Shown piece after piece: positions 27,480 to 33,797 of a DNA stretch of 64,000 nt (within the stretch, counting starts at the first letter, position 1; each line of letters starts with the position of its first letter). The DNA lies in the NCBI RefSeq assembly GCF_001999905.1, contig NZ_CP019640.1, forward strand, positions 1,468,001-1,532,000, written 5' to 3'. The DNA comes from Planococcus lenghuensis. GTDB taxonomy: Bacteria > Bacillota > Bacilli > Bacillales_A > Planococcaceae. A program made the position numbers and the translations under genes. The notes beneath the pieces are model-generated. The model did not search any database. It was not told the origin of the DNA and saw only the letters and a program-made list of their open reading frames with translations.

Positions 27480-28794
<1,315 letters not shown>

Positions 28795-28803
28795 GGTGAT
28801 GCC

Positions 28804-29676
28804 ATGCTGAGCCAACTCGAAGGCATCGTAATCCGCACGCGGCCGTATGGCGAAACGAATAAGATCGTGACGCTGTTCACCCGGGAAGCCGGCAAGATCA
28901 CGTGTATGGCGAGAGGTGCCAAGAAGCCAGCCAGCCGGCTGGCTTCTGTCACACAGCCGTTTACGCACGGCACGTATTCCGTCTATAAAGGAAAAGGGAT
29001 GGGCACGCTGCAGAACGGGGACCGGCTGGAGTCGTTCCGGCACATGCGGGAAGATATTCTTGCGACTGCTTATGTGAGTTATATAACAGAACTGATTGAC
29101 CGGTTGACGGAACAAGATGAGCCGCAGCCGATCATTTATGAAATCCTGTATCAGGCGCTCCGGGCCATCGAAGAAGAGTATGACCCGGAAGCGATTGCGT
29201 TGTTTGTCGAATGGAAGATGCTGCCGGTTGCAGGGCTGACGCCTACGCTACATCAATGCGCAAACTGTGGTGAAACGGAAGGGGAATTCGCGTTTTCCTT
29301 CCAGGAGCTTGGGTTTCTGTGCCACCGCTGCTTCCATGTCGATCCTTACATCATCCGGCTGAGCCCGGCACTCATTAAAGTGATCCGGATGCTGTATTCG
29401 GTGCCGATTGAACGGGTCGGTTCGCTGACGCTGAAAAAGGAATCGAAGCAATTGCTGAAGACCATCATCAGGACTGTTTACGAGGAACAGGCGGGTATAC
29501 GGTTGAAGTCACGCCAGTTTCTTGAACAGCTGGAACGCACACCGGAATTTCTGCCGGTGAAAAAAGCGGCAGTGAAAGAGGCACCGGTAAAAGAAGAGCT
29601 ACCAAAAGAAGAACCGATTGAAGAAATAGCAATTGAAGAAACACCAACAAACGAAAACCCGCCAGAAGACAAATGA
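28804..29676 (+). CDS. recO: DNA repair protein RecO with acidic C-terminal tail
   Basis: 290 residues. The N-terminal OB fold starts 'LEGIVIRTRPYGETNKIVTL'; a zinc-type pair of CxxC motifs lies near 152-176 ('CANCGETEGEF' and 'CHRC'). It loads RecA with RecF/RecR. The usual Bacillus length is about 255; here the last 40 residues are a low-complexity Glu/Pro/Lys repeat ('KEAPVKEELPKEEPIEE'). The last codons and stop lie inside the terminator and inside an 18-base sequence repeated at 32148. Confidence 0.94.
   Translation: MLSQLEGIVIRTRPYGETNKIVTLFTREAGKITCMARGAKKPASRLASVTQPFTHGTYSVYKGKGMGTLQNGDRLESFRHMREDILATAYVSYITELIDRLTEQDEPQPIIYEILYQALRAIEEEYDPEAIALFVEWKMLPVAGLTPTLHQCANCGETEGEFAFSFQELGFLCHRCFHVDPYIIRLSPALIKVIRMLYSVPIERVGSLTLKKESKQLLKTIIRTVYEEQAGIRLKSRQFLEQLERTPEFLPVKKAAVKEAPVKEELPKEEPIEEIAIEETPTNENPPEDK
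29654..29671 (+). repeat. 18-bp direct repeat, left copy
   Basis: AAAACCCGCCAGAAGACA, identical to 32148-32165. The left copy encodes the last residues of RecO. The two copies flank the AT-rich island. Confidence 0.8.
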
Positions 29677-29697
29677 GTCTTCTGCGGGTTTTTTTAT
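29655..29697 (+). terminator. terminator of era-recO
   Basis: Left arm AACCCGCCAGAAGAC (29656-29670) and right arm GTCTTCTGCGGGTT (29677-29690), one bulge, followed by a T-run; it contains the recO stop codon. Confidence 0.85.
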
Positions 29698-29705
29698 TGG
29701 TTGAG

Positions 29706-29930
29706 AAACTTTCTATATTGTCGCTTCGCTGCAAAAACACTCGCTTGCTCCTGCGCCGCTTCGATCTCATGCTCTTTTTAGGTCTTAACCAATCCTGCTC
29801 CTGCGGTTACTCGTCGCAGGCAAAACCGATGCTCCTGCGCCACTTTGTCGGCTCGTCGCAAACAATCAGGCCGAAATTCTTCGTCCTGATTGCTCGCAGG
29901 CGTCTCCTGTTTTCTGCGCTCATAAAATTT
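29706..29930 (-). repeat. interspersed repeat, copy B (CGCAGGAGCA family, inverted)
   Basis: On the minus strand it reads GAGACGCCTGCGAG, TTTGCGACGAG, CGCAGGAGCA, then TGCCTGCGACGAGTAACC, CGCAGGAGCA and finally CGCAGGAGCAAGCGAG. It thus carries the CGCAGGAGCA module three times and shares modules with copies A and C. An inner hairpin pairs CAATCAGG with CCTGATTG (about 29868-29899). Overlapping short frames are not genes. Confidence 0.6.
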
Positions 29931-30088
29931 CATCCCAAAGAATACTATCTGGAAGTGTATTTTACCTGATTATTTTCGAAGAGCAGTGTGGCAGTACAGG
30001 AAAAAAACATTTTTTATAACTACATGCTATAAAGAAGTGCTTTTTCTAGGCGAAGCGGTACTTTCATTCTTGAAAAGCGATGGACACT

Positions 30089-30162
30089 AATCAACAGTTC
30101 GACCGTATTGTTGATTACCAAGCGCACACTTAATGCCTTCCGAAATGGGAAGCTTTTTTGAC
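30089..30162 (+). other. two small hairpins in the island
   Basis: AATCAACA (30089-30096) pairs with TGTTGATT (30109-30116). A second hairpin, CTTCC(GAAAT)GGGAAG followed by six T at about 30138-30159, looks like a rho-independent terminator, but no gene on the plus strand precedes it. The remaining bases 29931-30301 show no gene. Confidence 0.4.
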
Positions 30163-30301
30163 GTTCGCATTTAAGTGAAAGTATTGTAAAAGCACCGCTA
30201 AAAGAGGTGCTAAACGATCTGCTAATTCTACTGCTAAACGGAGTTTAAAATGGGTCTATAACCCCACTGGCATTCCGTATTTCGCGATTTTAATGTGATA
30301 T

Positions 30302-30739
30302 TTAATTTCCTTCGTCAACTAAAGCCAATATTAAATCAAGCAACATATTAGTCATTTCTTCTGAGACTGTATAGATTGTATTTGTATTCTCGATTTCCAT
30401 TAGAGTGCTTCTTTGTCCTTTTTCTCCTATCCATAAATGAAACCCTTGTTCACTACCATCTTTAAATTTAACATTAACATCAAACTCTGGCTCAGCCATA
30501 CTTACTTCCATTTGCTCTTTAACCATATTTGAGAAAATACTTCTTAATGCTTTAATAGTTTTTTCGTCATCATACTCTGCAAAGAACTCTGGATTTATCT
30601 GACCAAAACCATTCGATTTAGAAATACTAACTTTTGTTATTTCTTTATCCATTTTCAATGTATTATCTCCTGATTGGCAACCTATCAAACCGATAGATAA
30701 CAAAATAGATGCGAAAATAAGAAATATAAACCTTTTCAT
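30302..30739 (-). CDS. small lipoprotein, YhfM-like domain
   Basis: 145 residues. Lipoprotein signal peptide with basic start MKRF, hydrophobic core and lipobox L-I-G-C (Cys21), so exported and lipid-anchored. The mature part 'VSISKSNGFGQINPEF', 'DEKTIKALRSIF' and 'GFHLWIGEKGQRSTLMEI', 'TIYTVSEEM' resembles the YhfM-like family of Bacillus lipoproteins (recalled, not searched); function unknown. ATG 30739 follows GGGAGG at 30747-30752 on the complement; a longer frame to 30775 adds nothing. AT-rich codon use unlike its neighbours. Confidence 0.8.
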   Translation of the reverse strand: MKRFIFLIFASILLSIGLIGCQSGDNTLKMDKEITKVSISKSNGFGQINPEFFAEYDDEKTIKALRSIFSNMVKEQMEVSMAEPEFDVNVKFKDGSEQGFHLWIGEKGQRSTLMEIENTNTIYTVSEEMTNMLLDLILALVDEGN

Positions 30740-31075
30740 CTGATAACCTCCCTGAGATATATTTTTCTTATACAAAGGTGACGGACCGAATCCTTTAATT
30801 GTCTCAATAATGTTGGTCTTAATTTATTCCAAAGTTCTTGTTCAACTAAACTGCCTCATTAGTTTAAGGGGATAGTGGTGCTCGTTCAACGGGAGCGGGC
30901 GTTCTAGTTCGAGGAAAGGGAGATTGGTGCCGATGTACGACCGAATAGACAATTAGAATACAATAAAATACAGAAATCCCTTAAACTCAAGATTAATTGG
31001 ATTTAAGAGATTTAAATTTCACTTGATTCTAAAGTTTAATTTTTACATCCTTACTGATAACTGACAGAGTCAACA
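30740..31075. other. intergenic region with a degenerate inverted repeat
   Basis: No gene seen. At about 30835-30920, CTTGTTCAACTAAACTGCC at the left is imperfectly mirrored by GGGCGTTCTAGTTCGAGG at the right, with GTTCAACGGGAGCGGGCG inside. It may be a decayed interspersed repeat. The rest is AT-rich. Confidence 0.4.
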
Positions 31076-31486
31076 TCATTCAATGACCTCTACACTTTCT
31101 GCAAGAATTCCTGGTGGTATTGAATCTTCCATACCCAGGGATACATCATAAACAACTTTAACTTTCATGCCTTTTTTCGGCGGCTCAGTCTCTCCCTCTT
31201 CCACATAGAAGCGGATAGCTTCATTCATGCCAGCAAATTCTAAAACTTCATCCCTTGCCATTTCCATTAAAGCAGTCCGTTCTATGTTAGGGATTACGAG
31301 AATTGTTCCCTCATCATGAGCTTGCACTCCAGTTACATACCCAACAAATTGGGTTAAATTTTCTTCTCGATTCTCATTCGAAAGTTCTTCCTGATTCTCA
31401 CTCGAAAATTCTTCCTGACCCGTCTGACAACCTGCCGTCAACGATGTGAGAAGAAGTGACGATAGAAAAATATTTCTCTTATTCAT
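31076..31486 (-). CDS. small lipoprotein, DUF3221-like
   Basis: 136 residues. Signal peptide MNKRNIFLSSLLLTSLTAGC with lipobox Cys20, then an acidic Glu/Asn repeat linker ('SSENQEELSNENREEN'), then a small beta-rich domain 'FVGYVTGVQAHDEGTILVIP' ending 'GMKVKVVYDVSLGMEDSIPPG'. This order resembles DUF3221 lipoproteins of Bacillus (similarity judged by eye). Function unknown. ATG 31486 follows GAAGGAAGGTG on the complement; GTG 31498 lies within that site. AT-rich like the other island gene. Confidence 0.78.
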   Translation of the reverse strand: MNKRNIFLSSLLLTSLTAGCQTGQEEFSSENQEELSNENREENLTQFVGYVTGVQAHDEGTILVIPNIERTALMEMARDEVLEFAGMNEAIRFYVEEGETEPPKKGMKVKVVYDVSLGMEDSIPPGILAESVEVIE

Positions 31487-31988
31487 GAGTGATGTCACCT
31501 TCCTTCAAAGAATTACATTTCTCCTGCTAAATCGAAATTTAAACCAATAGTAGGGTAAGATGTCCCTTTAAATAAATTGCGAAGTCTTTTCCATTTCCTT
31601 GATGAGTACGTCTTAGAAACAATAATGTTTCAGTTATAAATGTCGAATTTACTTTTAAAGGGAGTTGATGGACTATATATTTTTTAACCTATTATTCCTT
31701 GCTATTACAAAGTTAATAGAGATATATCGCTGTAAAGATTAGAGTGCATATTTTTATGGGTTCTTCTATATTTTTTAGGTAACCATTCGATTCTATTAAT
31801 GAACATCACCCAATGTTCAATTTGAAGAGCAAAGCGTGGAGTCAATACCTAGGCACGTGTGTCATTATTGGTATCTTCCGCAAAAGAGGAGGTAAAAACG
31901 ACCACCATTTCACTTGTAGATTGATGACCGTTTTAAGCTATACTTTCTTGTCTTGCGATAGGACACCATATTCAAAACGATTTTTTTA
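31487..31988. other. AT-rich intergenic region, no gene seen
   Basis: About 500 bases at the end of the island. It holds the ribosome site of the lipoprotein gene. I found no ORF of note, no clear promoter pair and no strong hairpin before the GC-rich element at 31989. Confidence 0.5.
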
Positions 31989-32078
31989 AGCGCCGGCGCG
32001 TCCATGGGCTAGTCGTCGTAATGAGACGGGGATTTTTCCGGCTCATTGCGAAAGACATGCCCAGAGCGGCCGGCGCGT
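31989..32078. ncRNA. GC-rich highly structured element, possible RNA or mobile palindrome
   Basis: In AT-rich surroundings lies a 90-base GC-rich block. Nested pairing: CGCCGGC near 31991 with GCCGGCG near 32069; TGGGC (32005-32009) with GCCCA (32059-32063); GTC with GAC; and CGTAATGAG (32018-32026) with CTCATTGCG (32042-32050, one G-U). All helices are co-linear and make one long interrupted hairpin, followed by GTTTT. It could be a structured RNA, an intrinsic terminator for either strand, or a mobile palindrome. The type is inferred. Confidence 0.4.
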
Positions 32079-32145
32079 TTTATGCATTCATTTGGTTTAT
32101 ATAAGTTGTTGCTGATTCACTCGCTATAAAAGCATCAGAAGTAAC

Positions 32146-32188
32146 TAAAAACCCGCCAGAAGACATGCGGTCTCCGGCGGGTTTTTAG
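32146..32188 (-). terminator. terminator of glyS
   Basis: Minus-strand reading: AAAAACCCGCCGGAGACC, loop, then GTCTTCTGGCGGGTTTTTA. The GCGGG/CCCGC base is perfect, the upper part carries mismatches, and one arm is the right copy of the 18-bp repeat. Confidence 0.8.
32148..32165 (+). repeat. 18-bp direct repeat, right copy
   Basis: Identical to 29654-29671. In the same frame as RecO it reads NPPED, then MRSPAGF and a TAG stop, as if it were a second, alternative 3' end of recO. Confidence 0.75.
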
Positions 32189-32192
32189 TGTT

Positions 32193-33575
32193 TTAGTATT
32201 CCAGGTGTTTGCTGACGTAATCAGCGACATCTGCGATTGGCAGACGTACTTGTTCCATCGAATCGCGGTGACGGATGGTGACTTGGCCGTCTTCCACGGA
32301 ATCGAAGTCATACGTAATGCAGAACGGCGTGCCGATTTCATCCTGGCGGCGGTAACGCTTGCCGATTGACTGGGATTCATCATAGTCCACTGCGAAATGT
32401 TTCGACAGAGTGGCAAACACTTCTTGTGCCTTGTCACCCAGTTTTTTCGACAGCGGCAGCACAGCTGCTTTGATCGGCGCAATCGACGGATGGAAGCGGA
32501 GGACGGTGCGCGAGTCGCCGCCTTCAAGTTCTTCTTCATCATACGCATCAATCAGGAAAGCGAGTGTGACGCGATCGGCGCCAAGTGACGGCTCGATGCA
32601 GTACGGCACATAGCTTTCATTCGTCTCGGGATCCGTGTAGGTGAAGTCATCGCCGGAATGTTCCATGTGACGCTTCAAGTCGAAATCGGTCCGGTCCGCA
32701 ATGCCCCACAGCTCACCCCAGCCGAACGGGAATTTGTATTCAATATCCGTTGTGGCATTCGAGTAATGGGATAATTCATCTTCATCATGGTCCCGGAGGC
32801 GGATGCTGTCTTCTTTGATGCCATGAGCAAGCAGCCAGTCCCGGCAATAATTGCGCCAGTAGCTGAACCATTCCAGGTCATCTTCCGGCTTGCAGAAAAA
32901 TTCAAGTTCCATCTGTTCGAATTCCCGGGTGCGGAATGTGAAGTTCCCCGGCGTGATTTCATTCCGGAAACTCTTACCGATCTGCGCGATACCGAACGGC
33001 AGTTTTTTACGCATCGAGCGCTGCACATTTTTATAATTCACGAAAATACCTTGAGCCGTTTCAGGACGGAGGAAGATTTCGTTTGATGATTCTTCTGTGA
33101 CACCCTGGAACGTTTTGAACATGAGGTTGAACTGGCGGATATCCGTGAAGTCATGTGCGCCGCACACCGGACAGGCGATGTCTTGTTCATCGATCAGTTC
33201 CCGCATCTTGCCGAACGACAGGCCGTCCGCAATGATTTCTTCCCCTTTTTGATTATAGGCATTTTCAATCAGTTTATCGGCACGGAGACGTGTCTTGCAG
33301 TTTTTGCAGTCGATCATCGGGTCGTTGAAATTGCCGACGTGTCCGGAAGCGACCCATGTTTTCGGATTCATCAGGATGGCAGCATCCAGCCCTACATTAT
33401 AAGGGGATTCCTGCACGAATTTTTTCCACCAGGCTTTTTTTACGTTGTTTTTCAGCTCGACGCCGAGCGGACCGTAATCCCATGTGTTGGCAAGTCCGCC
33501 GTAAATATCGGAGCCCGGAAAGACAAATCCCCGATGCTTCGCCAGTGATACGATTGTGTCCATTGATTTTTCCAT
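32193..33575 (-). CDS. glyS: glycyl-tRNA synthetase, single-chain dimeric type
   Basis: 460 residues, class II synthetase of the alpha2 type. '[20 protein letters not shown]' marks the N-terminus; '[11 protein letters not shown]', '[15 protein letters not shown]' and '[21 protein letters not shown]' are the class II motif 2 region, and '[14 protein letters not shown]' is motif 3. B. subtilis uses the unrelated glyQ/glyS tetramer; staphylococci use this form. ATG 33575 follows GGAGG (33583-33587, complement); the open frame to 33656 runs into the T-box leader. Convergent with recO. Confidence 0.97.
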
Positions 33576-33587
33576 AATAAAACCTCC

Positions 33588-33797
33588 AAAAATAAAAATC
33601 GCACCCGCCCACGGACAAATTGTCCGAGGACGAGTGCGTAACACCCGCGGTTCCACCCCGATTGGCTGAAAAAATCAGCCCGCTTGAAACGTGTCAGGCT
33701 CCAGACTGCCGCTTTCCGGCCGGTGCGGGCTTTCACTGTCCCCGCTCGCTTTTTGGTGGCCGTACTTATAGGTCCTTCAATGCCTGTATGAACATGT
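33588..33797 (-). promoter_or_regulatory. glycine T-box riboswitch of glyS
   Basis: The minus-strand leader carries the T-box GGGTGGAACCGCGGG (complement of 33644-33658), an upstream AGTA bulge-type sequence and a GC-rich stem I region. A terminator follows: CGCAC/GTGCG base and a palindromic GGACAAATTGTCC top at about 33613-33625, then TTTTTATTTTT. Uncharged tRNA-Gly would pair with the antiterminator and open glyS transcription. Confidence 0.9.

Follow-up and report, generated by a model that had tools for sequence, protein, structure and literature searches.

An AT-rich islet between two related terminators at the recO-glyS junction of Planococcus lenghuensis and its possible origin in a cassette array of Bacillales

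In the pdif modules of Acinetobacter plasmids, Xer-type sites flank single genes and are served by the housekeeping recombinases XerC and XerD. Integrons, and the site clusters without a recombinase known as CALIN, form one-way arrays of mostly one-gene cassettes in which a palindromic site follows the gene (in part from excerpts of PMC8618304, the architecture being otherwise common background). Excerpts of PMC10383233 describe another kind of insertion, the element GI-BM6001.4 at guaA, in which a short direct repeat stands at both borders and the 3' end of the core gene is intact. Here, we analyze a 64,000-nucleotide stretch of the Planococcus lenghuensis genome (contig NZ_CP019640.1, positions 1,468,001 to 1,532,000; hereafter the window), in which the convergent core genes recO and glyS are separated by a small island carrying two lipoprotein-like genes, lip1 and lip2, in an AT-rich core. 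The best explanation, and one that we consider fairly probable, is that the island was inserted at a terminator that recO and glyS once shared, and that its core is a captured two-gene piece of a cassette array.

The island had been noticed in a first-pass annotation made from the sequence letters, which described it as enclosed by an identical 18-bp direct repeat, and both copies of this 18-mer, AAAACCCGCCAGAAGACA, are indeed exact (Table 1). Each copy forms the 5' arm of a terminator that works in both directions, and the 18-mer is thus not a free-standing att site. The last codons of recO (N-P-P-E-D-K-stop) form part of the left terminator, with the left 18-mer encoding N-P-P-E-D, while the right terminator adjoins glyS, which we take to be of the one-subunit type. 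In the complete genome (4,149,733 bases, four contigs), the 18-mer occurs twice exactly, never with one or two mismatches, and nine times with three. The first-pass annotation had itself raised the objection that the 18-mer might be a common terminator stem; perfect hairpins of the form AAACCCGC..GCGGGTTT were found at just six genomic places, two of them the window copies, and so the stem is not a common one here.

Table 1. Features of the recO-glyS region, in window coordinates
Feature	Position	Strand	Basis or remark
recO	28804..29676	+	Reading frame; Pfam RecO_N and RecO_C
Left terminator hairpin	29653..29694		Fold and alignment; position common to the sister species
Left copy of the 18-mer	29654..29671	+	Exact match
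Native dispersed repeat DNA, left edge	29721..29866		At least 17 matches at 10 separate other genomic places
AT-rich core, foreign by composition	29930..31985		35.4% GC
Segment with an 80% copy at C1:403732-403866	30088..30223		Genome match
lip1, 157 aa, lipoprotein-like	30302..30775	-	Reading frame; relatives in 41 of 121 family genomes (own genome counted)
site2, half of an element resembling a cassette-type recombination site	30837..30874	-	Model R1, 24.3 bits, E 1.9e-6 in the window
lip2, 140 aa, lipoprotein-like	31076..31498	-	DUF3221, 31.5 bits, cut-off 26.4
Segment with an 81% copy on contig C2	31881..31966		Genome match
Native palindrome-ended repeat, right edge	31987..32081		At least 3 other genomic matches
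Right terminator hairpin	32144..32189		Inverted repeat and fold; 3 bases from the glyS stop codon
Right copy of the 18-mer	32148..32165	+	Exact match
glyS	32193..33656	-	Open reading frame; convergent to recO; 74-90% identity over the matched part to relatives' glyS

The first-pass annotation had also held that a perfect 18-mer pair exactly at the borders is unlikely to arise by chance. The longest exact direct repeats within the window are of 19, 19, 18 and then 16 bases, so the length alone is not extreme; the border position is. In the window, the recO and glyS ends have a longest common word of 18 bases, compared with at most 11 in the 27 other intervals above 300 bp (two of which come from one genome) and no more than 12 in 756 pairings across species. 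The hairpins as a whole also appear related. The left and right hairpins align with a score of 25.5, and the left and right against the single hairpin of the sister species Indiicoccus explosivorum with scores of 24.5 and 23.5, i.e., the two window hairpins are about as diverged from each other as from the sister's. The four other genomic stems of this kind scored 8.0 to 15.5 against the window hairpins, although these were aligned as shorter pieces (27-35 versus 42-44 bases) and hence have a lower score ceiling.

Planococcus and its relatives repeatedly show a hairpin that covers or adjoins the recO stop codon, as seen in most of the short intervals folded. The recO-side and glyS-side terminators of two other intervals (L074 and L076) share a short stem, GACCCGCA, which is perhaps a matter of chance or perhaps a second terminator duplication. 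A recurrent duplication of terminators at this junction was considered and rejected, as none was seen among the 27 other intervals above 300 bp. Matches to known RNA families between positions 28500 and 33500 were all below the gathering score.

Comparison with relatives supports the insertion of the island at this junction. In I. explosivorum, recO, one hairpin and glyS follow one another with a gap of 113 bp and no island, and the hairpin has the same stem at the same place. The first-pass annotation had named an allele with one copy of the 18-mer and no island as evidence for insertion; the sister allele has one hairpin and no island. Among 40 named recO loci, 35 gave a recO-glyS interval, 34 of them spanning 19-994 bp and one, in Lysinibacillus fusiformis, 5,478 bp; the remaining five have no glyS in the available DNA and were left out of the count. 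Neither lip1 nor lip2 nor the 18-mer occurs at any of the 35 measured loci, which is the reverse of the pattern, all relatives carrying the island, that would have spoken against an insertion.

Larger inserts exist at the same junction elsewhere. In a set of 25 family genomes, own included, eight have multi-kb inserts of 4.6 to 11.6 kb between recO and glyS (glyS was not reached in G007, G010 and G017), and these mostly hold other genes than those of the window, none of them lip1 or lip2.

The core is foreign DNA as judged by its base composition. Its 35.4% GC compares with 50.2% for the window, where the lowest other stretch of the same 2,056-bp length reaches 44.3%. The GC content at third codon positions (GC3) of the two lipoprotein genes is 24.7% and 32.6%, below that of all 49 other open reading frames (ORFs), of which the lowest has 48.6%. 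The AT-rich center, the two lipoproteins, the repeat DNA at both edges and the lack of a visible integrase, all described in the first-pass annotation, were borne out. The edge repeats belong to two dispersed families native to this genome, one of which has tandem copies at spacings of 33 and about 42 bases elsewhere; since 40 of 67 candidates were scored in the genome search for them, the match counts in Table 1 are lower bounds.

The relatives of lip1 counted in Table 1 include none from I. explosivorum. They also occur on two Niallia plasmids and one Planococcus plasmid; the surroundings were viewed for one of the Niallia plasmids and the Planococcus plasmid. For lip2, no relative was found at E 1e-3 in the 120 other family genomes. 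We had entertained the idea of lip2 as a unique protein (1 of 121 genomes) and dropped it, given that DUF3221 lies above its cut-off in 96 of 150 genomes in a search of the whole order, in which the matches listed all come from the window's family; because the family itself is common, it is just this copy that is without close relatives. In a search for relatives of solved structure, one of the lipoproteins retrieved one weak match (E 0.46) and the other none. Near lip1 relatives there are small orphan genes, SMI1/KNR4 among them (L144), and reading of the loci, as distinct from a family search, also turned up an RHS/YD-type repeat fragment (L102) and a CPCC-motif protein (L097); these surroundings resemble interbacterial toxin-immunity loci.

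Hallmarks of conventional mobile elements were looked for in the core and at its edges. An integrase or recombinase was absent from ten core and edge ORFs and from both lipoproteins; a decayed integrase or transposase was likewise rejected after searches of 10 and 8 ORFs out of 97 stop-to-stop ORFs. The ORFs searched gave no match to a transposase family such as insertion sequences or composite transposons carry; apart from the terminator arms, the ends of the island are not linked by an inverted repeat. A phage origin was discarded as well, matches to PHROGs being weak (the best, with the N-terminal part of lip1, at E 0.005), and lip1, the one of the two genes searched in phage records and viral contigs, has no relative in the former, nor in the latter by a close-relative search.

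What the first-pass annotation did not contain is a cassette-type site between the lipoprotein genes, and it is this site that points to the probable origin of the core. It corresponds to one half of an element found in arrays of other Caryophanaceae, which in gene orientation consists of two short palindromic sites, approximately AACTAACGGGTGCTTTAGT (site1) and approximately AACTAACGGGGCAGTTTAGTT (site2). The window copy is a site2 lying between lip1 and lip2 and on their strand, and the order on the minus strand is thus lip2, site2, lip1. The next non-overlapping match of the R1 model in the window has an E value of 0.06, and in the own genome, where 150 of 1715 candidates were scored, the window site2 is the sole match (E 1.2e-4). 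The stretch at about 30831-30868 matched a repeat of 30-40 bases in many family genomes; the 29-base core of this repeat, with up to three mismatches allowed, occurs once in the own genome and is present in 14 of 61 genomes, own included, but in neither I. explosivorum nor four g8 genomes. The distance from site2 to lip1 is 62 bp if lip1 starts at TTG or 98 bp if it starts at ATG, and in the arrays the median is 64 bp with quartiles of 41 and 123.5. The order of gene, site and gene is that of neighboring cassettes in arrays, and polarity and spacing also fit the array layout.

Both lipoproteins have links to the arrays. The region of the best family relative of lip1 (49%) contains two sites on the strand of that relative, one of them about 520 bp downstream. 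At E 0.01, site matches were found at 3 of 31 loci with a lip1 relative and at 1 of 10 with a DUF3221 gene, this last being L181 of genome G102, where the DUF3221 gene (1366-1752) is immediately flanked by a full element (1251-1343) and by the next site (1752-1793), the three sharing a strand.

The arrays themselves (L182-L193, L246-L256 and L261) resemble integrons in being composed of orphan genes with palindromic sites that point one way. The genes are small, each typically followed by a site, and the interval between site1 and site2 often contains a terminator-like hairpin and a T run, as seen in 48 full elements. RNAalifold gave no common base pair for these 48 elements; each half is self-complementary by eye. 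In 12 regions, which were chosen for holding the repeat and are therefore uninformative on its frequency, 95 of 96 site1 copies and all 111 site2 copies are oriented one way within their own region, and 115 ORFs run along the direction of the sites versus 28 against it, 4 of these 28 being the recombinase described below. Across 24 regions with 175 site2 copies in all, the nearest following ORF, when counted within 400 bp of site2, points the same way in 123 of 138 cases. The boundaries of homologous blocks coincide with sites as well: of 24 blocks without the recombinase, some of them pairs within one genome, 18 have the left end at a site, 15 the right and 13 both, whereas random ends would fall there in 13%. 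A larger count over 143 blocks (ends within 40 bases of a site, 90% left and 69% right versus 12% at random) was set aside, as most of these blocks are the recombinase itself.

The number of model matches per genome varies from at least 150 in G012 and 15 in G019 to none in I. explosivorum and in two of the g8 genomes (G008 and G042). The matches listed for G012 are mostly on the plus strand below about 0.66 Mb of contig C1 and on the minus strand from about 0.98 to about 1.65 Mb, which looks like an orientation relative to replication. Plasmids of Peribacillus carry arrays too, with genes for acetyltransferase, DinB, methyltransferase and hydrolase proteins, and on one of these plasmids a tyrosine recombinase lies about 5 kb beyond the last site. 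The repeat element was not found in phage records. We found no description of such arrays in the open-access literature, a scope that takes in few subscription journals or preprints, and we do not claim that they are unknown to science, which is not proven.

A search for tyrosine recombinases in 12 genomes, including three without arrays (own, sister and G008), revealed, within or next to the arrays, a type of about 279 aa. Across the 24 array regions, the gene is reversed relative to the sites in 16 of 16 cases; site1 comes just after its 3' end in 13 of the 16 (41-84 bp) and site2 beyond its 5' end in 10 (71-572 bp). Three of these proteins were compared with family models: they reach the XerA-type model NF040815 (220-224 bits, cut-off 220) and fail the integron-integrase model TIGR02249 (95.9, 89.5 and 95.9 bits, cut-off 265). 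The nearest solved structures by sequence are an XerC-like protein, XerD and XerA. In a tree for which 42 of 50 loci gave a protein, the 279-aa clade stands apart from 20 other recombinase hits with support of 100/100, although its 22 members were picked by likeness to the query and some of the grouping is thus built in. At E 1e-60, the recombinase is present in 30 of 121 family genomes and 7 of 19 genera, fragments included, and it is absent from the own and sister genomes.

We propose the following history. In the ancestor, recO and glyS would have converged on a single bidirectional terminator used by both, and in this lineage about 2.4 kb would have been inserted at it, with the terminator ending up on both sides; since a terminator is present on either side of the insert, each gene kept its stop signal. 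The core would be an array piece, consisting of the end of one cassette, its site and the next cassette, that was acquired horizontally and then decayed without a recombinase. In the donor arrays, to judge from layout and block boundaries, the 279-aa XerA-like recombinase probably excises and inserts single-gene cassettes at the sites. We have moderate confidence in reading the core as a fragment captured from a foreign array, because the lone site2 copy is co-directed with and between both genes at the usual spacing, and because of the array links of lip1 and DUF3221.

Several observations weigh against this account. The empty site is not exact, as the sister has about 95 bp after its hairpin versus the 3 bp between the right hairpin and the glyS stop codon here. 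The window contains only half of an element, the other half and the hairpin not being recognizable, and about 200 bp separate the lip2 stop from the site. Of six regions with good lip1 relatives, one holds sites and five hold none; taking the lip1 and DUF3221 relatives together (41 loci), 34 are without a site match at E 0.1 and 37 at E 0.01, and the DUF3221 cassette gene of L181 is merely 32% identical to lip2. The arrays are not uniform either, with six ORFs against the sites versus three along them in L187, and with recombinase relatives of 65-85% identity in four of 16 further regions (L257-L260) accompanied by one site or none, perhaps because other site types are used there; having no sites for orientation, these four were left out of the 24-region counts. 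Lastly, the cassette site is unlike the terminator 18-mer, and cassette recombination therefore leaves the joining at the terminator unexplained.

That joining may have come about by att-type integration, by crossover or by copying of a terminator. The first-pass annotation had offered att-like duplication, recombination between terminators or a decayed mobile element; insertion is supported, and the 18-mer turned out to be a terminator arm instead of a free-standing att site. An integrative element with its own tyrosine recombinase might have used the 3' end of recO as its att site, duplicated an 18-bp core and later lost the recombinase. Such an element would explain why the hairpins are identical over 18 bp and differ elsewhere, as for a core with foreign arms, and the 15-bp target duplication at the 3' end of guaA (excerpts of PMC10383233) is a precedent; the recO 3' end is intact. 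The 18-mer stands at both ends, and the sister allele has one hairpin but a longer spacer. The 3' arms of the hairpins are homologous too, however, no recombinase and only weak PHROGs matches came from the ORFs searched, the phage and viral searches with lip1 were negative, and the core shows signs of another origin, all of which makes this scenario unlikely. Somewhat better placed, though still doubtful, is a scenario in which an ordinary insertion came first and the recO terminator was then copied, or transferred by gene conversion, to give the second hairpin, or in which a crossover took place between similar terminators: the duplication is limited to the hairpin, and several Planococcus relatives have two independent terminators at the junction. 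The low end-to-end sharing in the 27 other long intervals speaks against it.

Two further alternatives concern the island's age and the meaning of its site. In favor of an ancestral island that was lost in the sister and in Planococcus, other family genomes have multi-kb inserts at the junction, but these mostly hold different genes and never lip1 or lip2, the nearest genera mostly have short gaps, the composition is foreign and the same genes are found here in none of the 35 measured relatives; we regard this as very improbable. The site between the lipoprotein genes might instead be a stray dispersed palindrome, with the core an unrelated acquired fragment. Consistent with this, half an element alone is present, the element might spread by itself as a small repeat, and most lip1 relatives are outside arrays; yet a single copy was found in the genome, co-directed with both genes and at the usual distance, and we think a stray palindrome improbable. 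An insertion at the shared terminator, with a captured array piece as its core, remains our preferred reading.

The sites may bear on resistance genes. A 38-base site2 query matched ten Staphylococcus and Mammaliicoccus plasmids at dfrK (84% identity, E 0.01), which count as one case because the same gene is carried. In the excerpts seen of two papers, site-like words occur in primers, the majority of them with the names Cat or CAT: primers named Cat carry site1- and site2-like words (PMC4403831) and one primer named CAT carries a site2-like word (PMC2440758). These matches are suggestive only of dfrK and cat having once been cassettes. More broadly, we see about even chances that Bacillales possess an integron-like system of their own, with a dedicated XerA-type recombinase and a bipartite site that often has a built-in terminator, that the islet is its fossil in a lineage without the system, and that the system may have supplied resistance genes of Gram-positive plasmids (cat, dfrK). 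The islet illustrates how a terminator shared by convergent core genes can accommodate foreign DNA without either gene losing its stop signal. Should the arrays prove mobile, Gram-positive Bacillales would have a cassette-capturing platform whose XerA-like recombinase lets it escape searches with the integron-integrase model, and a testable origin would be at hand for many orphan genes and perhaps for some resistance genes.

Compared with the systems introduced above, the islet is like GI-BM6001.4 in its short direct repeat at both borders and its intact core gene 3' end, and unlike it in having no integrase among the ORFs searched, in the duplication of a terminator and in the small size of its insert, about 2.4 kb. 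The arrays share with pdif modules the Xer-type sites flanking single genes, and differ in that a separate recombinase clade sits in the array itself. With integrons they have in common the one-way layout of mostly one-gene cassettes, the palindromic site after the gene and the recombinase gene reversed to the cassettes and, as with CALIN in the excerpts of PMC8618304, site clusters without a recombinase also occur. In contrast to integrons, their recombinase is a XerA-like protein of 279 aa outside the integron-integrase model, its gene often lies between site1 and site2, the site consists of two short palindromes often arranged around a terminator-like hairpin, and the hosts are Bacillales.

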